DNA of 64,000 bases from the NCBI GenBank assembly GCA_003168375.1, contig PMSI01000003.1, positions 124,001-188,000 on the forward strand, given 5' to 3'. The position numbers and the translations under genes were made by a program. Origin of the DNA: Vulcanimicrobiota bacterium. Lineage in GTDB: Bacteria > Vulcanimicrobiota > Vulcanimicrobiia > Vulcanimicrobiales > Vulcanimicrobiaceae. Below are positions 10,179-33,156 of this stretch, one piece after another; position 1 is the stretch's first letter, and every line of letters begins with the position of its first letter. Under the pieces are notes generated by a model that did not search any database, had not been told where the DNA came from, and saw only the letters and a list, made by a program, of their open reading frames with translations.

Positions 10179-10826
10179 TTGGCGATCGCAGCCCCCGTCG
10201 CCGAGCCCCTCGACTACCACGAGCGGCCCGACGAAGATCTCGTCTCAGCGGCGAAATCGGGCGACAACCTGGCGATGGAGTTCTTGCTCAACAAGTACAA
10301 GAATTTCGTCCGAATCAAGGCAAAGAGCTACTTCCTCATCGGCGCCGACCGTGAGGACATCATTCAGGAAGGGATGATCGGCCTCTACAAGGCCGTCCGC
10401 GACTTCAAAGCCGACAAGCTTTCGAGCTTCCGGGCCTTCGCAGAACTCTGCATCACCCGTCAGATCATCACTGCGATCAAGACCGCGACGCGGCAGAAGC
10501 ACATCCCGCTCAACCAGTACATCTCGCTCAACAAGCCGATCTACGACGAGGACAGCGAGCGAACGCTCCTCGACGTGATGCCTTCGCAGAAGACTTCGGA
10601 TCCCGAAGAGCTCGTGATCAATCAGGAGGTCTCCGAAGACATCAAGGCGCGCATCCAGGAGAATCTCTCCGACCTCGAGTCGCAAGTGCTCCTGTCATAT
10701 CTCGAAGGCAAGTCCTATCAGGAGATGGCGCGCGACCTGAACCGGCACGTGAAGTCGATCGACAACGCGCTTCAGCGCGTGAAGCGGAAGATCGAGAAGA
10801 ACCTGGCCGAGATCGAACTGCCTTGA
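10179..10826 (+). CDS. sigH: RNA polymerase sigma factor, SigH-like
   Basis: The protein (215 aa) is a compact sigma-70 family factor. It has a region 2 core (NKYKNFVRIKAKSYFLIGADREDIIQEGMIGLYKAVRDF) that binds the polymerase and the -10 element. Region 4 (LSDLESQVLLSYLEGKSYQEMARDLNRHVKSIDNALQRVKRKI) recognises the -35 element. Similarity and gene position (after rlmB, before the tRNA/rpmG/secE/nusG group) fit the SigH of Firmicutes. There it controls stationary phase and early sporulation. That role is not shown here. The TTG start at 10179 is preceded by AAGGTAGG. A hairpin at 10887-10919 follows the gene. Confidence 0.9.
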   Translation: MAIAAPVAEPLDYHERPDEDLVSAAKSGDNLAMEFLLNKYKNFVRIKAKSYFLIGADREDIIQEGMIGLYKAVRDFKADKLSSFRAFAELCITRQIITAIKTATRQKHIPLNQYISLNKPIYDEDSERTLLDVMPSQKTSDPEELVINQEVSEDIKARIQENLSDLESQVLLSYLEGKSYQEMARDLNRHVKSIDNALQRVKRKIEKNLAEIELP

Positions 10827-10886
10827 AAGGACCTAGGGGCGCGTAGCTGATCCGTCAGCCGACGCCTTCGAGGATCGAGACGGAGA

Positions 10887-10919
10887 GGAGAAGGCCCCGC
10901 CTAGTGCGGGGCCTTCTCC
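10887..10919. terminator. Hairpin terminator shared by sigH and the convergent ferredoxin-like gene
   Basis: A perfect 14-bp stem (GGAGAAGGCCCCGC and its complement) encloses a 5-base loop. It lies between sigH and the 3' end of the minus-strand gene, whose stop codon is within the hairpin. No long T-run follows, but the stability and position suit a bidirectional terminator. Confidence 0.7.
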
Positions 10920-11278
10920 GTTGCCGGCGCGGGTTGCGGCGCGAGCTCGCGCACGATCGTCTGGTAGATGAGCTCGCGATCCTCGAGCGGGTCGAAGACG
11001 AGACACTTTTGCTGCCCGCCGCGGCCGATGGGATCGATGAAGATCGTCACCCGGCCGGGCGCGCAGACGTCGAGGCACGTCGTGCCGGCCGCGCGGATCG
11101 CGCCCCAGTGGCCTTCGGCCTTGAGACGATCCTTGAGCCACTCACGGAGCTTCAGCCGCTCGTCGCCGGCGTGCTCCGGAAAGTCTTCGGGGAAGCGGAC
11201 GTTCAGGCACTTCTCGCAGACGAGCGCGAGCCCGCCGTCACGGCGCCACAACGGTCTAACTTCGATCGGTTCGCTCAC
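10901..11278 (-). CDS. 2Fe-2S ferredoxin-like (thioredoxin-fold) protein
   Basis: This 125-residue protein has the cysteine pattern of thioredoxin-like 2Fe-2S ferredoxins. A first pair sits in LVCEKCLN and a second in TTCLDVCAPGRVTIFIDP, the C-x3-C followed by a strand that typifies the family. Such small proteins are likely soluble electron carriers. The partner is unknown. The gene is 40 bases downstream of the minus-strand tRNA-Thr and may share its transcript. Its end lies in the terminator hairpin. Confidence 0.75.
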   Translation of the reverse strand: MSEPIEVRPLWRRDGGLALVCEKCLNVRFPEDFPEHAGDERLKLREWLKDRLKAEGHWGAIRAAGTTCLDVCAPGRVTIFIDPIGRGGQQKCLVFDPLEDRELIYQTIVRELAPQPAPATEKAPH

Positions 11279-11317
11279 GTTCTACGACGATTACTCTCGC
11301 ACGCGAGAAAGATGCAG

Positions 11318-11401
11318 AGCCGACGGTGGGATTCGAACCCACGGTGTGCTTGCGCAGTAGGCTTACAAAGCCTATCCCATCGACCGCTAGGGCACGTCGG
11401 C
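11318..11401 (-). tRNA. tRNA-Thr (anticodon UGU) with a long variable arm
   Basis: On the minus strand a 7-bp acceptor stem (GCCGACG paired with CGTCGGC) is perfect. The D-stem is CCC/GGG, the anticodon stem is TAGGC/GCCTA around the loop TTTGTAA, and the T-arm is canonical with GTTCGAATC. The anticodon reads UGU, threonine. The region between anticodon stem and T-stem is about 15 bases and can form a short stem (TGC/GCA), as in class II tRNAs such as Tyr, Ser and Leu. CCA is not encoded, unlike the other tRNAs in this window. The acceptor end (G1-C72, C2-G71, U73) resembles the second threonine tRNA here. Confidence 0.8.
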
Positions 11402-11496
11402 GTCGGCGCCATGTTCGGGCGGCGGATGCCGCGACTCCTCGCTTCGGCGATAGGAACGCTCCGCGAAGGCCGCGTATCAGAGCGGGTCCGCACCGT

Positions 11497-11584
11497 GGGT
11501 CGGTGGTCGAGTGGTTAATGGCACCGGGCTGTAAACCCGGCTCGCGAAGGCGATACGCAGGTTCAAATCCTGCCCGGCCCACCA
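11497..11584 (+). tRNA. tRNA-Tyr (anticodon GUA)
   Basis: The acceptor stem GGGTCGG pairs with CCGGCCC with one G-U pair. The anticodon loop is CTGTAAA, reading GUA. A class II variable arm (CTCGCGAAGGCGATACG) precedes the T-arm GCAGGTTCAAATCCTGC. CCA is encoded. The gene belongs to a cluster resembling the Thr-Tyr-Gly-Thr set that precedes tuf in many bacteria. Confidence 0.93.
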
Positions 11585-11652
11585 GTAAGCAAGCAGGCGG
11601 CGCGTGTCCGCACGGGACACGCGCCGCCGCTTCGCTAAGGACGCGATCGAGC

Positions 11653-11726
11653 GCGGGCGTTGCATAATGGTAATGCCCTTGCCTTCCAAGCAAGAGTCGC
11701 GGGTTCGATTCCCGCCGCCCGCTCCA
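11653..11726 (+). tRNA. tRNA-Gly (anticodon UCC)
   Basis: The acceptor GCGGGCG pairs fully with CGCCCGC. The anticodon loop is CTTCCAA, reading UCC. The T-arm is CGGGTTCGATTCCCG and CCA is encoded. A terminator follows directly, so the tRNA-Tyr/tRNA-Gly transcript ends here. Confidence 0.95.
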
Positions 11727-11733
11727 ATTCGAG

Positions 11734-11761
11734 GCCCCGCGACGGCGGGGCTTTTTCTTTT
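11734..11761 (+). terminator. Rho-independent terminator after tRNA-Gly
   Basis: A 7-bp G+C-only stem (GCCCCGC/GCGGGGC) with a 4-base loop is followed by a T-rich run (CTTTTTCTTTT). This is the clearest intrinsic terminator in the window. It separates the tRNAs from the defence-type gene that reads toward them. Confidence 0.9.
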
Positions 11762-11863
11762 CGCCGAGGACCCACGACCCAGTGGCACACACGAGCGCCA
11801 AGGTGGCGCTGCGAAGTCTGATCCCAAACGCCGCGTGCTCTCGACGGCGAGGGCTCGCTGAAT

Positions 11864-14800
11864 TCACGTACGCTCTAAGAACTCCGAAATAGGGGGATGT
11901 ACCGTTGAGTCGGCTGCCCGTGCTGCGGCGCGAAAGATGCGTAGGATCTGAGTCCTGACGTTGCCGGAGCGGTCTGCGATAGCGCTCTCAAGAGCCGGCA
12001 CGGTGTGGCGCGGTGCTACCAGGGCAACGCGCTGTTTAGAGACAACCGTCGTCCATTGATTCGCGACAGTTTCTCGAATGCTGCTAAGCGTCGGGTAGAG
12101 GGGATCGTGAAGGCCGAGAAACGCAACCCAAGCTTGTTCCGCCAACAGAATGGTGTCTGGCGTCCCGCCCCCGAGCAGGCCATGAGCCACTCCAGCGGCT
12201 AACCGCTCACGGTTTGTGATGTTGCCCGACCCGCGGAGCATTTTCAGCATCAGTTCGCGGTCGTCCATAAGATCGATTACGAGCGCAAGCCATCCGGCAA
12301 CATCAACCACACCAAACTCGTGGGCGTCACGTTGAATATCGTCGATAATGGCGCGGTCGGGCGCGCCGTCGGCGCAAAGACGAACAAGTACCGCCGCGAC
12401 GAGTTCCACGGTGGGCAAGGGACCGGCGTCGTATCTTCCGAGAGCCTCCATGTCGCGGCGATCGCGTTCGATCCCGGCAATTGTCTCGATCAGTTCACCT
12501 GTACGTCCAAGTCTGATCGCCCATGTGATGGATATGTGTCGAACGAGCGCTCCTACGGGCAGCGGATTCGCCATTAAGCGGTCGGCATGAGCATCAAGAA
12601 TCTCCGGTCTGTCGCCGACCTGCAGCTCGAACTGGGAGAGCGCCATCAATGCGATGTCCAAGCCGGGCGGGTTGTCCATGGGGGGCAGTGGATCCGGATT
12701 GCTCAAAAAGCCGACTGCGAAGAGACCTCCGTCTTGGTTCCGTTCTAGCGCGCGATCGCGTGCGGTTATCTCCATGAACACAGTGCCGACGCGCCGAGCG
12801 AGGTCGCTGACCGCCTCTTTTTCGGCGACGTGCTCCAAACCAAGCGCCTCGCTCGCGGCTGACGTTGCCAGACTTAGCGCCCGGTGACTATCGCCTGCCC
12901 GCCACGCCGCATAGGAAGCGTCGAATTTCAGGGCGCACGGCATAAGGGGAGCGGCAGGGCTGCTCTTTAGCATGTTCGCGGCGGACTCAAGGAGCGCGGC
13001 CGCATCGTCGAACCTCCTGAGGTTCCCGGCGTCGTTCGCGGCGAGTCTCATATCGAGCGCCGGTTCTGGATCGTCAGCCTCGTAGTCCAATGCGGCTTGT
13101 GCTTCGCGGAATAGATCGAACGACGACTGCCAATCAGCAGTCGCGTGGGCGATAGATGCCCGGGCCAACGTTAGCCGCGCTCGACGTCCGTATATTGCTT
13201 CGGCGTTGTCCACGACGGCAGTCGCACTTGTGGGATCGTCCGCGAACTCGGCCAACACGCGCGCGGTGCTCGTATAGCATTCGAGCGCGAAGGAGTCGAG
13301 TCCTAACGAGCTCACGAACACCGCAAACCGCTCAAGAGAGCGACCGAGGGATGCGAAGTCGGGTTCGTCGGCTGCGTGCTCATTGGCCACCAGTCCAGCT
13401 GCGACGCCGCGCCATATCATAGAGTGCACGCTGACGAAGCCAAGGAACCGTCGAGCGACATCTGGATCTTGAGGGCGAAGCTTCTCCGCAACGGACTCGA
13501 GATCGGATTGAGTTGCAACGCCAGAAAATATGTTTGTACCTGCCCAGTACGCAACGTCGCCGCATGCATCAGCAGAGTTCACCAACATGTCTTCAACGAG
13601 ACCCGATATGTCCGGCTGCTCGCGATGCAACTGCGCATCTACCTCTATCCAGCGAAACGCGTGGTCCATCATGGCCGGAACTGGTTCGGCCGGATATATT
13701 ACGACGTTTCCGTAGAACGAGTACAGCATCATCAGTCTGAACGGAGAATCGGCCATAGAGCCGGCCTCCATCTCGAACGCAGCCACAATTTTCCGCGCCT
13801 GGTCGGCAGCGTTCGCTACGCGCGCAACCCGGTATTGAGCGCATCGCAGAAGCCACAACGCAGCCGTATTTTGAAGGCCAGCGATTGGCGGAACATCAAT
13901 GCCTATCGCGGCAAACCAGCGATTCGTGCGCGATAGGGCAAGCCAGAAGTCTTCGTCGACACGCTGCACGAAGGACATGAGCAGCCCCTCGACCGTGCTC
14001 GCATCCTCGCCCCATAGCGCATGAAGTATGGCGGCCACAGCGTCACGGATGTCAACGGGATCACGCACGAGCAAGGAGCGCGCGATAGCGGAATGCGTCC
14101 GCTTGACCCATTGAGGGTCGTACGCGTATTCACCGGCGCGAGAGATAAGCGGGGAAGCCGAATACCGCTCGCTGCCGAGGGCTTCAATCCAGGGGCCGAC
14201 GAGGCGATCGAAAACGGTGCCTGCAGCCGCTATGGCGCCCTCCGGGGGAACCTCGGTCGCCGCGAGAGCGACGACATGCTCTCTGCGCGGGTTCGTCATC
14301 GTAACGAGACTCAGACGATACAGCAGCTCGCGATCTGGCGCATTGAGTGAAGCGATAAACCTGCGAGCCTCGGACATGACGTCGCCGACCTCCCGAGGCG
14401 CCTCGAAGATGTCGTCGACGGTAGGCTCGGGGAATGCGCTCGCGATCAGAGAGGCAGCTCGCGCCGCGACAAGCGTTGGATGTCCCGCGGTCGTCGCGAA
14501 TATAATGCGTCCCCACTTAGCGGCGCGATCCGCGGGCGCCGCTTGGGACTCTAAAAATGCAGCGACTTCTAGCTCGCTAAAGTTCTCCATGTTTACAACG
14601 AAGTCGTTGTTCGTCTCAGTCGCCGTCTGCACGCTTGGCGGTGGTGGCAAGAATGATGTGATGATCACCCGAGCGCCGACGCCGCGCACTTCGTCAATAA
14701 GCATCTTCAGAGCGCGGCCAAGTCGTGCCGCATCCCCAGACATATCGAGGTCGTCGACTAGGAGGCTGTAGGCCTCGGCGCTCTGTTGCGCCTGGCGAAC

Positions 14801-15871
14801 TGCTACCCGGAGAACCCGTTCGGATTCATCCGCATTGCGGTTGCGCAAGTCTACGCGCCGCCAGTCTCCGCCGACGCTGCGAGCGTAATCCAACGCTGAT
14901 CCGGTCTTCCCGGTGCCCGAAGAGCCAACGAGGAAGGCCAGGCCATGCGCGTCTACCCTTGCGGCAATCGGCTCGAACAACGTCGGACGCCGCCAGTATC
15001 GCGGAGGCATGGGCGGCATCTCGTCGAGGACAGGTTGTTCTTGTGGGACGTGTGGAGTGCGCATCCCTGACGCGAAAAGCGCGCTGTTAATAGGGATCGG
15101 GACTGACGTTGCTTGCTCGAACGTTATGCGCAGTTCCAGTAGGTCCAGGAACCGGTCAGTGCGTGCCACTGCCGCTTCCAAGACGCGATCAAAGAGCCGC
15201 GATAGGGCTTGCAGTGATTGTGCGGTGTTAAAACCCTTCCCCAAGCCGTACCGCGCAAGAGCGCGTTCAGCACGGTGACGTAAATCGGCCGGCTGCGCGG
15301 CCGAGACGTCGAAGGCGAATGGAATAAAAAGCCGTTCGCGAATTTCCTGTGGACCTGCAGCTGCGAGAAATGTTCGCAGAACTACTGGTAGTGCTTCTTC
15401 GTTTGAGAGCGCGCTGGCGATGGCACTAACGATTGGCACCCATAGGGCGGGATCGTCAATGCTGCGGGCTTCTTCCCAAAGCACCAATCCCGGGCGGTTC
15501 AACCCATACGGATTGCCTTTCTCGAGCCCGATGTCCGCAGTAGTGAGGTACGAAAAGCGTATCGCGCGATCAGGGTTTCGCGCGACGTGACCCCAGAAGT
15601 GCCCGATTGACTCGAGCACCTTACGTGATTTCAGGGTGACGTTGCCCGCTTCGCGCTTAACCTGGATGACGTCCGCGCCTGATCGTCGCAGTTTCTCGAT
15701 GTCCTCAGCGCCTTCAAGAAACAGTACGTCTGAGTCGTCCGTGAGTTCGAGCCACGCGACCAGGGACTGCCACCCTTGGTAGAGGTATCCACCAAAAGAG
15801 TCGACCGCTTCCCGGGCTGTCTCTCCCGTAAGGCGGCTTGGAATCCGGTCATGGTCCCGTTCGTGTGACAT
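11864..15871 (-). CDS. Cap4-like nuclease fused to a STAND NTPase with helical repeats (putative Avs-type antiviral protein)
   Basis: This 1335-residue protein has three parts. Residues about 20-125 match the DUF4297/Cap4 endonuclease pattern: GGYLYQGWQSLVAWL, an acidic pair in LEGAEDIEK (E56, D57), the QVK motif at 70-72, then FSYLTTADIG. A STAND-type P-loop ATPase follows, with Walker A GSSGTGKT (316-323) and Walker B SLLVDDLD (369-376). The remaining roughly 800 residues are alpha-helical, TPR-like repeats suited to sensing. Known antiviral STAND (Avs) proteins join such nucleases to an NTPase and a phage-protein sensor. The G+C content is visibly lower than that of the neighbours and the gene lies between tRNA genes, both signs of transfer. 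Domain assignments are by pattern, and the antiviral role is inferred. Confidence 0.8.
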   Translation of the reverse strand: MSHERDHDRIPSRLTGETAREAVDSFGGYLYQGWQSLVAWLELTDDSDVLFLEGAEDIEKLRRSGADVIQVKREAGNVTLKSRKVLESIGHFWGHVARNPDRAIRFSYLTTADIGLEKGNPYGLNRPGLVLWEEARSIDDPALWVPIVSAIASALSNEEALPVVLRTFLAAAGPQEIRERLFIPFAFDVSAAQPADLRHRAERALARYGLGKGFNTAQSLQALSRLFDRVLEAAVARTDRFLDLLELRITFEQATSVPIPINSALFASGMRTPHVPQEQPVLDEMPPMPPRYWRRPTLFEPIAARVDAHGLAFLVGSSGTGKTGSALDYARSVGGDWRRVDLRNRNADESERVLRVAVRQAQQSAEAYSLLVDDLDMSGDAARLGRALKMLIDEVRGVGARVIITSFLPPPPSVQTATETNNDFVVNMENFSELEVAAFLESQAAPADRAAKWGRIIFATTAGHPTLVAARAASLIASAFPEPTVDDIFEAPREVGDVMSEARRFIASLNAPDRELLYRLSLVTMTNPRREHVVALAATEVPPEGAIAAAGTVFDRLVGPWIEALGSERYSASPLISRAGEYAYDPQWVKRTHSAIARSLLVRDPVDIRDAVAAILHALWGEDASTVEGLLMSFVQRVDEDFWLALSRTNRWFAAIGIDVPPIAGLQNTAALWLLRCAQYRVARVANAADQARKIVAAFEMEAGSMADSPFRLMMLYSFYGNVVIYPAEPVPAMMDHAFRWIEVDAQLHREQPDISGLVEDMLVNSADACGDVAYWAGTNIFSGVATQSDLESVAEKLRPQDPDVARRFLGFVSVHSMIWRGVAAGLVANEHAADEPDFASLGRSLERFAVFVSSLGLDSFALECYTSTARVLAEFADDPTSATAVVDNAEAIYGRRARLTLARASIAHATADWQSSFDLFREAQAALDYEADDPEPALDMRLAANDAGNLRRFDDAAALLESAANMLKSSPAAPLMPCALKFDASYAAWRAGDSHRALSLATSAASEALGLEHVAEKEAVSDLARRVGTVFMEITARDRALERNQDGGLFAVGFLSNPDPLPPMDNPPGLDIALMALSQFELQVGDRPEILDAHADRLMANPLPVGALVRHISITWAIRLGRTGELIETIAGIERDRRDMEALGRYDAGPLPTVELVAAVLVRLCADGAPDRAIIDDIQRDAHEFGVVDVAGWLALVIDLMDDRELMLKMLRGSGNITNRERLAAGVAHGLLGGGTPDTILLAEQAWVAFLGLHDPLYPTLSSIRETVANQWTTVVSKQRVALVAPRHTVPALESAIADRSGNVRTQILRIFRAAARAADSTVHPPISEFLERT

Positions 15872-16341
15872 CGTCGCCTATTGATTCGCACCGACCGGCC
15901 GCGGCATCCCGCGTCGCGGCGACCGAGCGCCTGCTCAATTCTGCGATCCCACGCCATGACGCGGCACGAGTCGAGAATGCGACGCTCGCCCTGGACGGTC
16001 CGCGCGACGACCCGGCCACCTGATTTCGCGACCGACACACTGCGCACTATGCGGTTGTGCAGTCCGTCCGTGAGCTGCACGTTGACCCGTCCCGCCCCTG
16101 GAGGGCAACGGCCGACGACGTCGTCGCGACGCAGCCGATCACCGCACAGTGCGACAACCTCGGCGTTAACACGGCACTCTATACATTCGAGCGCGGCAAC
16201 GGCGAAGGCGAAGATGACAGCGGCAATTGGCATCACTGAGACGACGACGGTGGCCATCACGGAAACTGACAGAACGTAGTATTTTCTGCGGGGCGCGCAC
16301 TGTGCCGCACTGGTGGCACGGTGCGCGCGTAGCATGAGTAC
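15872..16341. other. Region between two divergent nuclease genes, with a weak minus-strand membrane-protein frame
   Basis: This 470-base stretch lies upstream of both nuclease genes and should hold their promoters. A minus-strand frame ending inside the large gene (15631-16353) contains one hydrophobic segment (VVVSVMPIAAVIFAFAVAAL) and a pair of cysteines. Its overlap with the large gene and its arginine-rich remainder make it doubtful. A strong inverted repeat sits at 16293-16328. Confidence 0.35.
16293..16328. promoter_or_regulatory. Long inverted repeat just upstream of the small nuclease gene
   Basis: Two 14-base arms (GCGCGCACTGTGCC and GGCACGGTGCGCGC) pair with a single T-G mismatch around an 8-base centre. 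The repeat ends 13 bases before the ATG at 16342. It could be an operator bound by a dimeric regulator or an RNA hairpin hiding the start region. There is no T-run, so it is not a typical terminator. Confidence 0.55.
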
Positions 16342-16875
16342 ATGAGTTATCAAGCGATCCCGGGCGTGTCGTTCTTGATCGATGACGAGTGCGGCGACTG
16401 CCAGTTAGAATTCGAACTCACGCCAGAGTTCGAAGCTAGATATGAACTGACGCCGCTGACCGGCAACGGGGCGAAGCGCAACACGAAGAAAATAGGCGAC
16501 ATCTCAGAGCTCCATGCGATCGTCGCCTTGACGAAGCTAGGCTACAAAGTGCTGATTCCGTTTGGGGAAAATCAACGCTACGATTTCGTCATTGATGACG
16601 GGGAGACGTTTTCGCGCGTGCAGGTCAAGACGGGCCAGCTGCGCGGCGATGTCATCCTTTACAGCTGTTCGAGTTCGCATGCCCATCGCGGCGGGACTTC
16701 GCGCCCCTATTTCGGGCAGATCGAGTATCTGGCGGTCTATTGCCCGGGGACTGAGAAGGTCTACCTGTTGCCCGAGAAGGAGTTGACGGCTACGAGAGCT
16801 CATCTTCGCCTGTCGCCGCCGCGGAATAATATGGTCAAGTCCATCCGCTGGGCGCGCGATTTCGAGCTGGCGTAG
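16342..16875 (+). CDS. Small PD-(D/E)XK-family nuclease
   Basis: The 177-residue protein has the core of a PD-(D/E)XK nuclease. A conserved glutamate (E56) sits in KKIGDISELHAIVALTKLGYKV. An aspartate (D81) lies in NQRYDFVIDDG, and QVK (94-96) lies in FSRVQVKTGQL. This fits the family typed as PD-(D/E)XK endonuclease, related to resolvase- or homing-type enzymes. The substrate is unknown. The reading frame ends inside the first 10 bases of tRNA-Thr, so this block abuts or was inserted at the tRNA. No clear ribosome binding site precedes the ATG. With the large divergent nuclease/NTPase gene it forms an accessory block. Confidence 0.75.
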   Translation: MSYQAIPGVSFLIDDECGDCQLEFELTPEFEARYELTPLTGNGAKRNTKKIGDISELHAIVALTKLGYKVLIPFGENQRYDFVIDDGETFSRVQVKTGQLRGDVILYSCSSSHAHRGGTSRPYFGQIEYLAVYCPGTEKVYLLPEKELTATRAHLRLSPPRNNMVKSIRWARDFELA

Positions 16876-16940
16876 CTTAGCGGTAAAGCACCTCGTTGGT
16901 AACGAGGAGACCGTGGGTTCAATCCCCACCGCCAGCTCCA
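16866..16940 (+). tRNA. tRNA-Thr (anticodon GGU)
   Basis: The acceptor GCTGGCG pairs with CGCCAGC. The anticodon loop is TTGGTAA, reading GGU, the T-arm is GTGGGTTCAATCCCCAC and CCA is encoded. The 5' end overlaps the end of the nuclease gene by 10 bases. It completes a Thr-Tyr-Gly-Thr tRNA set that is split by the nuclease block. Confidence 0.94.
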
Positions 16941-16948
16941 GATGCTAC

Positions 16949-16975
16949 CGAGACCCTCCCTACCAGAGGGTCTCG
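16949..16975 (+). terminator. Hairpin after tRNA-Thr
   Basis: A 10-bp inverted repeat (CGAGACCCTC/GAGGGTCTCG) with a 7-base loop follows the tRNA within 10 bases. The T-rich sequence behind it is short. It is a likely terminator or processing signal. Confidence 0.55.
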
Positions 16976-17002
16976 TCGCTTTCCTGAGTAGTCGTAGACC
17001 TC

Positions 17003-17962
17003 ATGCCTGCAGCGGTCTCGACCGATAGCGCGAAGCACGCGCTGCTTGAACGCCTGATCGACGACGCGAGTCTCTTTCCGCCGGCCGCGCTGCCGATGCG
17101 GGCGGCGCTGCGAGCGCACGCGCGGCTCCGCGAGAGCGCCTACTGGTGGGTGGCCGGCCGCTTCGTCGCCCCGGCGTCGCGGCTCGAGGAGCTCGCCGCG
17201 GCCCGCAATGCGGCCGACGAGCCGCTCGACCTCTCGGTCGTGCTCGACTCCGGCGCGTCGGGTGCGAAGGGCGACACCGTCCGTGCCGACCTCCACCGCG
17301 TGGACCGCCTCACCGGGCTCGACGGCGTGACCGTCTCCTCGCTCGAGGCGCGCCTGCCGAACGTCGCGCTCGACAGCGCGGCGATGCAGCGCATCGTCGC
17401 CGATATCGTCGAGCGCTACCCGAGCGCCGAGATCGCGTTCTGGTACGAGTCCGCATACGACGCCGGCTGGAACGCCACGCCCGAGAGCTGGCTCACGGTG
17501 CTCGCGGACGCGCGGGCGGCGGCGCCTGCAAACGTCACGATCGGCGCGAAGGTGCGCTGCGGCGGTGCGGCCGCGGGCGCGACCCCGTCGGTCGACGACC
17601 TGGCGGCGTTCCTGGTCGCCGCGCACGCGCACGACGTGCCGTGGAAAGCGACCGCGGGCCTGCACCATCCCGTCCGTGGCGAGCACGCTGCGGGCGGCGG
17701 CACGGTAGCGCACGGCTTCCTGAACGTCTTTTTCGCCGGCGCCGCGCTGCACGCCGGTGCGCTCGACGCGGCGCGCGTCGCCGAGGTGCTCGCCGAAACC
17801 GATCCGCGCGCGTTCGTCGTCGACCCGGTGCACGCCGCATGGCGCGACGTCCGTCTCGAGCCCGGGCAGATCGCGGCAGCCCGCGCGCGCTGCGTCGCGT
17901 TCGGCAGCTGCAGCTTCGACGAGCCGGTGAACGACCTGCGCGAGCTCGGCATCGTGTCGTGA
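17003..17962 (+). CDS. Conserved protein of unknown function, coupled to fumarylacetoacetase
   Basis: The product (319 aa) is a soluble, alanine-rich protein with no signal peptide. Recognisable segments such as KATAGLHHPVR and HGFLNVFFAGAALHAG recall an uncharacterised family that I cannot name. The last 4 bases overlap the GTG start of the fumarylacetoacetase gene, so the two are translationally coupled. The context suggests a role in aromatic amino acid (tyrosine/homogentisate) breakdown, but no catalytic motif was recognised. Confidence 0.7.
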   Translation: MPAAVSTDSAKHALLERLIDDASLFPPAALPMRAALRAHARLRESAYWWVAGRFVAPASRLEELAAARNAADEPLDLSVVLDSGASGAKGDTVRADLHRVDRLTGLDGVTVSSLEARLPNVALDSAAMQRIVADIVERYPSAEIAFWYESAYDAGWNATPESWLTVLADARAAAPANVTIGAKVRCGGAAAGATPSVDDLAAFLVAAHAHDVPWKATAGLHHPVRGEHAAGGGTVAHGFLNVFFAGAALHAGALDAARVAEVLAETDPRAFVVDPVHAAWRDVRLEPGQIAAARARCVAFGSCSFDEPVNDLRELGIVS

Positions 17963-19182
17963 TCGATCCGAGCGACTACGGGATCGACAACCTCCCGTTC
18001 GGCATCATCTCGGACGAAGGTCACGCGCTCAAACGTCCCGCCGTCGCCTTCGAGGACAAGGTCGTCGATCTCGATGCGCTCGTCCACAGCGGCCGCTTGG
18101 ACGCAGAGTCGCTGCTCGGCGCGGCGACGCTCAACGATTTCCTGGCCGAAGGTCCGGCGGTGTGGCGCGCGGTGCGCGCGCGACTGCGCCATCTGCTGAG
18201 CGCGGCGGCGAACGACGACGAGCGCGGTGCGGTCGCGAAGGCTATGCTGCCGCGCGACGCCGTGACGATGCACCTGCCGATCGCGGTCGGCGACTACGTC
18301 GACTTCTATTCCTCGCTCGAGCACGCGACCAACGTCGGTCGGATCCTGCGGCCGGGCGCCGAGCCGCTGCCGCCGAACTACCGTCACGTTCCGATCGGGT
18401 ATCACGGTCGTTCGGGGACGGTCGTCGTCAGCGGGACACCGGTGCGCAGACCGCACGGCCAGGTCAAGGCGGCCGATGCGGCGGCGCCGTCGTTCGGACC
18501 GACGGCGATGCTCGACGTCGAGCTCGAGATGGGGTGGATCGCCGGACCCGGCAGCGTCCACGGCGAGCCGATTCCGGCGGACGCCGTCCGCGAGCACGTC
18601 TTCGGCTACGTGCTGCTCAACGACTGGAGCGCGCGCGACATCCAAGCGTGGGAGTACCAGCCGCTGGGGCCGTTCCTCGCCAAGTCGTTCGCGACATCGA
18701 TCTCGCCGTGGATCGTGACGCTCGACGCCCTCGATCCGTTCCGCGCCGCCGAGCCGCAGCGCGATCCGGAGCCGTTGCCGTACTTGCAGTCGCGCGAGTC
18801 GTGGGCCTACGACGTCGAGCTGCAGATGCTGCTGCAGACCGAGCGCATGCGCACGCACGGGCACCCGCCGCTGACGGTCGCACGCACGAACCTGCGCGGG
18901 ATGTACTGGACGCTCGCGCAGCAGCTCGCGCACGTTACCTCGAACGGCGCGCACCTGCGTCCCGGAGACTTGTTCGGCACCGGCACGATCTCCGGCGCGG
19001 ATCCCGGCACGGAGGGTTCGCTGCTCGAGCTCACCCGGCGCGGCGCGAACCGCATCGCGCTGCCCGGCGGGGAGACGCGCGGATTCCTCGAGGACGGCGA
19101 CACCGTCGTCATCCGCGGGCGGGCGGTGCGCGGCGCGGCGCGCGTCGGGTTCGGCGAGCTGAGCGGCACCGTCGTCGGCTGA
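17959..19182 (+). CDS. fahA: Fumarylacetoacetase
   Basis: Fumarylacetoacetase cleaves fumarylacetoacetate to fumarate and acetoacetate, the last step of tyrosine degradation. The metal-binding and substrate motifs are present. They include DYVDFYSSLEHATNVG, PIGYHGRSGTVVVSGT, a DVELEMGWIAGPG segment with acidic metal ligands, and NDWSARDIQAWEYQPLGPFLAKSF. GTISGADPGTEGSLLEL lies near the end. The length of 407 residues is normal. The GTG start overlaps the previous stop. No other homogentisate-pathway gene is visible in the window. Confidence 0.92.
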   Translation: MIDPSDYGIDNLPFGIISDEGHALKRPAVAFEDKVVDLDALVHSGRLDAESLLGAATLNDFLAEGPAVWRAVRARLRHLLSAAANDDERGAVAKAMLPRDAVTMHLPIAVGDYVDFYSSLEHATNVGRILRPGAEPLPPNYRHVPIGYHGRSGTVVVSGTPVRRPHGQVKAADAAAPSFGPTAMLDVELEMGWIAGPGSVHGEPIPADAVREHVFGYVLLNDWSARDIQAWEYQPLGPFLAKSFATSISPWIVTLDALDPFRAAEPQRDPEPLPYLQSRESWAYDVELQMLLQTERMRTHGHPPLTVARTNLRGMYWTLAQQLAHVTSNGAHLRPGDLFGTGTISGADPGTEGSLLELTRRGANRIALPGGETRGFLEDGDTVVIRGRAVRGAARVGFGELSGTVVG

Positions 19183-32266: not shown

Positions 32267-32530
32267 ATGAAGTCGACCCCCACCACTCGTCAGCCGGCGA
32301 AGCGTCCCGCCGTCACCCCCGCGCAGCGGGCGGCAAACGCGGCGCGGACCCGAGACTTCGTTCGCGGCATCGTCGCCGAGATGCGCCGTGTCACCTGGCC
32401 GACGCGCGAAGAATGGATCGCGGCGACGCTGCTGACCATCGCGCTGGTCGTCGGCGTGGGCATCTTCACGTACCTCTGTGACCTCGCGCTCGGCTACATC
32501 TTCGGTTGGCTGACCGGAGGCGCACGCTGA
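32267..32530 (+). CDS. secE: Preprotein translocase subunit SecE
   Basis: SecE stabilises the SecY channel. The 87-residue protein has the conserved amphipathic segment FVRGIVAEMRRVTWPTREEW. One C-terminal transmembrane helix (AATLLTIALVVGVGIFTYLCDLALG) follows, as in the short, single-helix SecE of most bacteria. The stop overlaps the nusG ATG by one base. Confidence 0.95.
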   Translation: MKSTPTTRQPAKRPAVTPAQRAANAARTRDFVRGIVAEMRRVTWPTREEWIAATLLTIALVVGVGIFTYLCDLALGYIFGWLTGGAR

Positions 32531-33156
32531 TGGATCAAGACGCGACCACCACCGTCACCGCGGTCACCGAGCCCGACGAGCAGGCCGCCGCGCCGGCGGC
32601 GCCGGCTCAGAAGAAGACCGACGATCGCAAGAAGTGGTACGTGATCCACACGTACTCCGGCTACGAGAACAAGGTCAAGGCGAACCTCGAGCGCCGCATC
32701 CACTCGATGAACATGCAGGACAAGATCTTCCGCGTGCTCGTCCCGATGGAAGACGAGGTCGAGTTCAAGGACGGCAAGCGTAAGATCACCCCCAAGAAAG
32801 TCTTCCCGGGCTACGTGCTCGTCGAGATGGACATGGACGACGCGTCCTGGTACGTCGTGCGCAACACCTCGGGCGTGACCGGATTCGTCGGCTCGCCGGG
32901 GTCAGGTGAGAAGCCCGTACCGTTGCAGGACAAAGAAGTGAAGACGATCCTCAAGCAGATGGGGATCGAGACGCCCAAACTCAAGATCGACTTTGCGAAG
33001 GGCGACCGGATCAAGGTCACCTCGGGACCGTTCTTCGACTTCACCGGGATCGTCGACGACATCCAGCCGGAAAAAGAAAAGGTTCGCGCGCTCATCTCGA
33101 TCTTCGGGCGCGAGACGCCGGTCGAGCTGGAGTTCTACCAGATCGAGAAGGTCTAG
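32530..33156 (+). CDS. nusG: Transcription termination/antitermination protein NusG
   Basis: NusG binds RNA polymerase and links it to ribosomes or Rho. The NGN domain is clear (KKWYVIHTYSGYENKVKANLERRI, FPGYVLVEMDMDDASWYVVRNT, TGFVG). The KOW motif follows (KGDRIKVTSGPFFDFTGIVDDI). An alanine-rich N-terminal extension of about 30 residues precedes the NGN domain. The length of 208 residues is normal. Confidence 0.96.
   Translation: MDQDATTTVTAVTEPDEQAAAPAAPAQKKTDDRKKWYVIHTYSGYENKVKANLERRIHSMNMQDKIFRVLVPMEDEVEFKDGKRKITPKKVFPGYVLVEMDMDDASWYVVRNTSGVTGFVGSPGSGEKPVPLQDKEVKTILKQMGIETPKLKIDFAKGDRIKVTSGPFFDFTGIVDDIQPEKEKVRALISIFGRETPVELEFYQIEKV

Follow-up and report, generated by a model that had tools for sequence, protein, structure and literature searches.

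A probable selfish homing endonuclease gene at tRNA-Thr(GGU) in the Eremiobacterota, behind a predicted LexA box

The tRNA cluster and its insertion

The window analysed here is a stretch of 64,000 nucleotides from a member of the phylum Eremiobacterota (WPS-2), and was compared with a set of 149 genomes of the phylum. It contains a tRNA cluster within which lie two protein-coding genes, P0001 and P0002, both recovered exactly where a first-pass annotation of this DNA had placed them. The features of the locus are as follows.

11317-11401, minus strand: tRNA-Thr(UGU), called by ARAGORN and Rfam
11497-11584, plus strand: tRNA-Tyr(GUA), called by ARAGORN and Rfam
11653-11726, plus strand: tRNA-Gly(UCC), the left edge of the insertion, called by ARAGORN and Rfam
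11731-11754, plus strand: terminator-like hairpin after tRNA-Gly, of 10 pairs followed by a T-rich stretch, suggestive only
11864-15871, minus strand: P0001, 1335 amino acids, Cap4/DUF4297/LmuA-like nuclease with NTPase and repeats
16302-16319, plus strand: 18-bp palindrome GTGCCGCACTGGTGGCAC, a predicted LexA/SOS box, the motif also being found upstream of recA and lexA throughout the phylum
16330-16335, plus strand: TAGCAT, predicted -10 box (TANNNT), 6 nt before the ATG
16342-16875, plus strand: P0002, 177 amino acids, free-standing PD-(D/E)XK protein of the I-Ssp6803I homing endonuclease family (PF11645)
16866-16940, plus strand: tRNA-Thr(GGU), called by ARAGORN and Rfam, overlapping P0002 at 16866-16875

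The hairpin after tRNA-Gly has the longest stem among sites of its kind in the region, the number of which is not above chance. A search of the genome for this tRNA-Thr(GGU) gene gave no second match at E<=0.001.

The distance between tRNA-Gly(UCC) and tRNA-Thr(GGU) is 5139 bp here, whereas in several other genera, where the gap is unoccupied, the two genes are separated by 5-17 bp (5 bp in L081, 10 bp in L087, 8 bp in L089 and 17 bp in L090). The block has therefore been inserted into what was a closely spaced tRNA cluster in the ancestor, as the first-pass annotation had proposed. The same annotation had likened the flanking genes to the thrU-tyrU-glyT-thrT cluster of E. coli; this holds for the set of genes but not for their collinearity, tRNA-Thr(UGU) being on the minus strand here. 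In some relatives (L072, L079 and L087) this gene is on the plus strand. The lower G+C content ascribed to the block was borne out, with local values of approximately 0.59-0.62 against approximately 0.70 in the surroundings. The idea that it forms part of a tRNA-borne defence island was not, as the genes that occupy the same gap in other species have no defence-like look; on a reading of their sequences, rather than a gene-by-gene search, they appear mostly metabolic or signalling in nature. Elsewhere in the window, the genes for nusG (32506-33156) and ribosomal protein L1 (40518-41225), which are usually close neighbours, are more than 7 kb apart and possibly mark another cluster that has been opened up.

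The homing endonuclease gene and its tRNA

P0002 matches the Pfam family PF11645 (PDDEXK_5) with an E-value of 3.1e-34 and 118.4 bits, against a curated cut-off of 26.1, and a sequence search of the PDB returned a single match, to I-Ssp6803I (2ost, 5.9e-6). In an AlphaFold model built with 18 related sequences the core is predicted with confidence from about residue 50 onward, and the model superposes on 2ost_A with a Z of 15.0 across 130 residues, the next chains scoring 9.8; the fold is also like that of Holliday-junction resolvases, at a lower Z than for I-Ssp6803I. The motifs picked out earlier, E56, D81 and QVK 94-96, are present and conserved in relatives (E56 in 17 of 18 and D81, Q94 and K96 in all 18). 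Because of the PF11645 match, the fold match to 2ost and the conservation of E56, D81, Q94 and K96, P0002 is, as judged from sequence and model, a homing-endonuclease-family protein of the I-Ssp6803I PD-(D/E)XK family with an intact active site. This is a kind of protein that had not been considered when P0002 was taken for one half of a defence pair, and it replaces that assignment. A hidden group I intron at the site was also considered and was rejected, as Rfam recognised none at 10500-18000; the P0002 gene is free-standing. Carriage by a group I intron is a feature of the type member I-Ssp6803I and not of the protein family.

The 3' end of the homing endonuclease gene (HEG) lies inside tRNA-Thr(GGU), as was seen in the first-pass annotation. 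Its last codons, GAG CTG GCG TAG, enter the tRNA, which starts with GCTGGCG; the first 10 nt of the tRNA are thus the final codons and stop of P0002, with the TAG itself formed by tRNA nucleotides 8-10. The intact HEG frame stops at the same tRNA codon in nine genomes belonging to two sister genera (g1 and g19). In other genera the HEG ends approximately 70 bp upstream of tRNA-Thr, so the overlap is not general; G015 and G102 have the HEG on the downstream side of tRNA-Thr, pointing in the opposite direction. A stretch of approximately 70 bp before tRNA-Thr was observed to be conserved in L067, L069, L074, L079 and L080 and in HEG-bearing relatives. It is present whether or not a HEG can be recognised in these other genera, and is perhaps the tRNA promoter. 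A promoter for tRNA-Thr was not found in the host genus. A LexA-repressed promoter alone would be insufficient for the supply of an essential tRNA-Thr, and an 'addiction' of the tRNA to the HEG promoter alone would sit uneasily with a repressed promoter.

A family search found PF11645 in 33 of the 149 Eremiobacterota genomes, and in 29 of these 33 the HEG adjoins tRNA-Thr(GGU), a count that is our own tally from PF11645 positions, a search for tRNA-Thr(GGU), site readings and tRNA scans. In G053, G054 and G103 the PF11645 gene is inside a split tRNA, the exons of which we read as tRNA-fMet (ARAGORN called one as Met and two as Ser); a group I intron was recognised by Rfam in two of these three loci. 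In G059 a PF11645 fragment is found at a contig end, approximately 260 bp before tRNA-Lys. Homology searches beyond the phylum gave four genome loci, in four other phyla, each of them next to a tRNA, which is Asn in Roseisolibacter, His in Acidobacteriota, Thr(UGU) in Uhrbacteria and Arg in Halogeometricum, and on a viral contig the HEG is located between tRNA-Ser(GCU) and tRNA-Ser(UGA). A universal linkage of PF11645 to tRNA genes was rejected, since two Acidobacteriota genomes, G236 and G417 (L151, L152 and L155-L172), each contain at least ten divergent copies, nearly all of them away from tRNAs.

At the Acidobacteriota locus next to tRNA-His (L127) the C-terminal frame of the HEG was seen to run into a tRNA-like 3' half, comprising the T-arm and the 3' strand of the acceptor stem; no matching tRNA 5' half was seen beside this HEG. 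In the Uhrbacteria tRNA cluster (L131, 4349-4978), two tRNA genes, of which one was read as Thr(GGU), are interrupted by group I introns that lack an open frame. They are followed by tRNA-Thr(UGU), and an I-Ssp6803I-like gene begins directly at the 3' end of this last tRNA. Going by its sequence, this cluster looks like material for collaborative homing.

Across the phylum the tRNA-Thr(GGU) site is found in intact, decayed, stacked and empty states. Frameshifted or truncated copies of the HEG are present in G007, G009, G034 and G118 and a remnant in G010. Within the host genus, decay or loss was seen in G006, G007, G009 and G010, and the family search found the HEG in nine of ten congeners. 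Such a range of intact, broken, stacked and empty sites is the pattern expected of a selfish homing gene. Values of dN/dS for intact pairs were approximately 0.09 (G028/G110), 0.13 (G000/G004), 0.18 (two copies in G077) and 0.23 (G108/G109), and the HEG is under purifying selection. In a tree of the HEG, which has moderate support, G117 groups with genus g44 and not with its congeners, RecA placing it in g25, and the two copies of G002 fall in different lineages; inheritance of the HEG within the host genus may be mostly vertical.

The stacked locus of G002 (L053, 10526-12010) has two PD-(D/E)XK HEGs of different lineages in tandem at tRNA-Thr, and the gene between them has a translation that we read as HNH-like. 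The outer HEG ends in ELA-stop, and of tRNA-Thr only nucleotides 1-11 follow it; this looks as though another unit had inserted into the tRNA near nucleotide 11, bringing with it a new 5' end. This footprint is the best sign of insertion but is a single case, most of which could be explained by a conserved HEG C-terminus. No flanking tRNA duplicate of at least 12 nt was found at the element in the window, a duplicated tRNA piece being seen solely at the stacked locus of G002.

The upstream palindrome and predicted SOS control

The palindrome GTGCCGCACTGGTGGCAC upstream of the P0002 ATG is the sole palindrome of its type within the 64 kb, and the 18-bp consensus of the motif is RTGCC-N8-GGCAY. 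Allowing a single mismatch over the eight positions, it was found in 24 of 26 HEG upstream regions (8.7% in dinucleotide shuffles), and as a perfect palindrome in 19 of the 26 (0.4% in the shuffles), these regions being drawn from related species and hence partly dependent on one another. The G000 genome has 24 occurrences of the strict pattern, counting both strands, compared with 2 for the reversed control, and the motif is therefore genome-wide. It stands before recA in all 24 Eremiobacterota genomes tested for that gene and before lexA in 25 of 27, and in some genomes it is also found before ssb and radA; it precedes recA even in G016, G023 and G029, in which no HEG was found. Some of the genome-wide sites stand before genes that have no evident link to DNA damage. 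Since the palindrome is common to the upstream regions of recA, lexA and the HEG, the simplest reading of these comparisons is that it is very probably the LexA/SOS box of the phylum.

At the HEG the order box-N10-TANNNT-N6-ATG is kept in 16 species and was found zero times in shuffled sequence. Because the predicted -10 box is just 6 nt before the ATG, transcription would be expected to start at or beside the ATG, giving a leaderless HEG message. A sigma-54 reading of the TGGCAC half-site was rejected, as the GC at -12 is not conserved between species.

The same predicted box was also observed in front of HNH-type endonuclease genes, in L225 (G000, C2 near 256942) and L206 (G004) and further in L073 near 6642 (G119), L066, L075 and L067. 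Several of these share the box-N10-TANNNT-N6-ATG layout, and in genus g25 one boxed HNH-type gene is flanked by tRNA-Thr(UGU) and tRNA-Tyr of this cluster. In G000, three near-identical IS605 OrfB/TnpB-like genes (L224, L226 and L229) are each preceded by a predicted LexA box. A literature search, mostly of sources outside the subscription journals, found neither a homing endonuclease reported to be under LexA control, nor a LexA motif for the Eremiobacterota, nor a homing endonuclease ending inside a tRNA.

The large neighbour and the competing explanations

P0001 can be divided into a nuclease region (residues ~19-235), a P-loop AAA/STAND-like NTPase (~300-540) and helical TPR-like repeats that extend to the C-terminus. 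The motifs previously described (E53/E56/D57, QVK 70-72, GSSGTGKT and SLLVDDLD) are present and conserved in relatives, with E53, D57, G319 and K322 of the P-loop and D374 invariant in eight sequences. The N-terminal region matched the PADLOC models for LmuA (1.6e-8) and DUF4297 (1.7e-5); Pfam matches to Cap4_nuclease and AAA were weak and below the cut-offs, and that to NCBIfam DUF4297_antiphage was far under its cut-off. A profile that included seven plasmid relatives matched Cdc48-type NTPases in the PDB and the DUF4297 structure 8ziq (4.5e-5), and some of the plasmid relatives match TPR families. AlphaFold, run without an alignment on residues 1-560, gave a pLDDT of 37 and an unusable model. 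The profile matches agree with the original description of P0001 as a Cap4/DUF4297-like nuclease joined to a P-loop NTPase and TPR-like repeats.

In having an N-terminal Cap4-like nuclease, P0001 is similar to Lamassu LmuA, DUF4297-HerA and CBASS Cap4, but it differs from these systems in being a single gene with scores mostly below curated cut-offs, and no LmuB, CD-NTase or HerA gene was found beside it in the window, where its neighbours are tRNAs, the HEG and frames lacking matches of these kinds. Its nuclease-NTPase-repeat layout resembles that of Avs (STAND) proteins, but no Avs model was found among the PADLOC matches up to E=1, a search in which a divergent member could be missed. Full-length P0001 was found in this genome only among the 149 of the phylum, one other having a weak C-terminal match. 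Its distant relatives, 21-26% identical in alignment, are single genes on proteobacterial plasmids, next to which no LmuB, CD-NTase or HerA and no PDDEXK-type partner is annotated. By analogy, P0001 is plausibly a stand-alone defence protein, and probably a single-gene nuclease-NTPase-TPR system of the abortive-infection type. The defence role suggested in the first-pass annotation is therefore plausible for P0001, which resembles defence nucleases, but does not hold for a paired system with P0002: P0002-type genes are present at the tRNA in many relatives, and the two genes were never found together elsewhere in related genomes. As P0001 is not co-inherited with P0002-type genes, it is an incidental neighbour of the HEG, an unrelated newcomer in the same opened-up gap.

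That P0001 and P0002 form one anti-phage module, pairing a nuclease-STAND sensor with a small effector nuclease within a tRNA-borne defence island, would be in keeping with their adjacent and divergent arrangement, their lower G+C content and the likeness of P0001 to defence nucleases. We regard this as highly improbable, and it is largely refuted by co-occurrence, relatives of P0002 being found in 33 genomes of the phylum and P0001 in one. It also fits poorly with the solitary state of the plasmid relatives of P0001, with the character of the genes found in the same gap elsewhere, with a best match of P0002 to a homing endonuclease family and with the 250 bp upstream of P0001, in which there is no close copy of the predicted LexA box. 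P0002 might instead be a domesticated protein that no longer homes and has taken on a host role, for instance that of a damage-induced nuclease or repair factor, its tie to the tRNA being a historical chance. The retention of the HEG in most congeners, the purifying selection, the regulatory box held in common with recA and lexA and the lower-scoring likeness to Holliday-junction resolvases would all be consistent with this. Domestication is nevertheless unlikely given the frequent decay or loss in the same genus, the empty sites elsewhere, the stacking of two HEG lineages and the best match to I-Ssp6803I, well above the resolvases.

It is also rather doubtful that the palindrome is the operator of some other regulator, or of the HEG itself, and not a LexA box. 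Autorepression is known for I-TevI, and genome-wide sites that precede genes without an obvious damage link might point in this direction, but a different operator is hard to reconcile with the presence of the palindrome before nearly every lexA, a gene that is normally autoregulated, and every recA tested, as well as before ssb and radA in some genomes. Self-regulation by the HEG would not explain the box before recA in the HEG-less genomes.

Homing endonucleases are textbook selfish genes, and the explanation that we favour, and consider probable, is that P0002 is a selfish free-standing HEG on tRNA-Thr(GGU) that is controlled by LexA and unrelated to P0001. Under this explanation the HEG would not be expressed before RecA is activated, by DNA damage or by single-stranded DNA entering the cell, and LexA is removed. 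The leaderless message would then be translated and the enzyme would cut a tRNA-Thr locus without the HEG, at or beside the tRNA, following which RecA-dependent repair from the carrier would copy the HEG together with the tRNA end (intronless homing). LexA control, the leaderless start, the cutting of unoccupied tRNA-Thr loci and the repair-driven copying are steps that we infer. RNase P cleaves at the tRNA 5' end, and because this processing would strip the HEG stop codon from the message, the tRNA and the HEG message would be alternatives, with one transcript serving either as tRNA or as mRNA. A wider proposal, which we offer tentatively, is that unrelated DNA-breaking selfish genes (the PD-(D/E)XK HEG, HNH-type genes and IS605-type OrfB/TnpB) may each have gained the host LexA box, timing their spread to the activation of RecA by damage or DNA uptake, and that the joining of the PD-(D/E)XK frame to an essential tRNA may cause tRNA maturation and the endonuclease message to compete for one transcript.

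I-Ssp6803I (PDB 2OST) comes from a cyanobacterium, where it is the homing endonuclease of a group I intron within a tRNA-fMet gene (Bonocora and Shub 2001, as cited in PMC3984707). P0002 shares with it the Pfam family, the fold (Z 15.0), the catalytic residues and a tRNA-gene habitat, and intron-borne versions are also found in the Eremiobacterota; unlike I-Ssp6803I, P0002 is free-standing and intron-free, has its stop codon supplied by the tRNA, is located at tRNA-Thr(GGU) and has a box common to recA and lexA. SegB of phage T4 is a free-standing homing endonuclease of the GIY-YIG type, encoded in the tRNA region of T4 (PMC2988022; PMC13096335). Both are thus free-standing endonucleases in a tRNA cluster, and intronless homing, known for SegB, would be shared by P0002. 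SegB differs in its unrelated nuclease fold, in being phage-borne and not chromosomal and in having phage promoters where P0002 has a predicted LexA box; it sits between tRNA genes (Arg/Ile) with no tRNA overlap described in the cited passages, whereas P0002 overlaps its tRNA.

To our knowledge, little has been established about the regulation and persistence of free-standing chromosomal homing endonucleases in bacteria. If the explanation that we favour is correct, homing would be coupled to the moment at which recombination is active and foreign DNA is possibly present. The comparisons also yield a predicted SOS-box consensus, open to testing, for a phylum that has received little study, and a route to asking why tRNA genes attract mobile nucleases.
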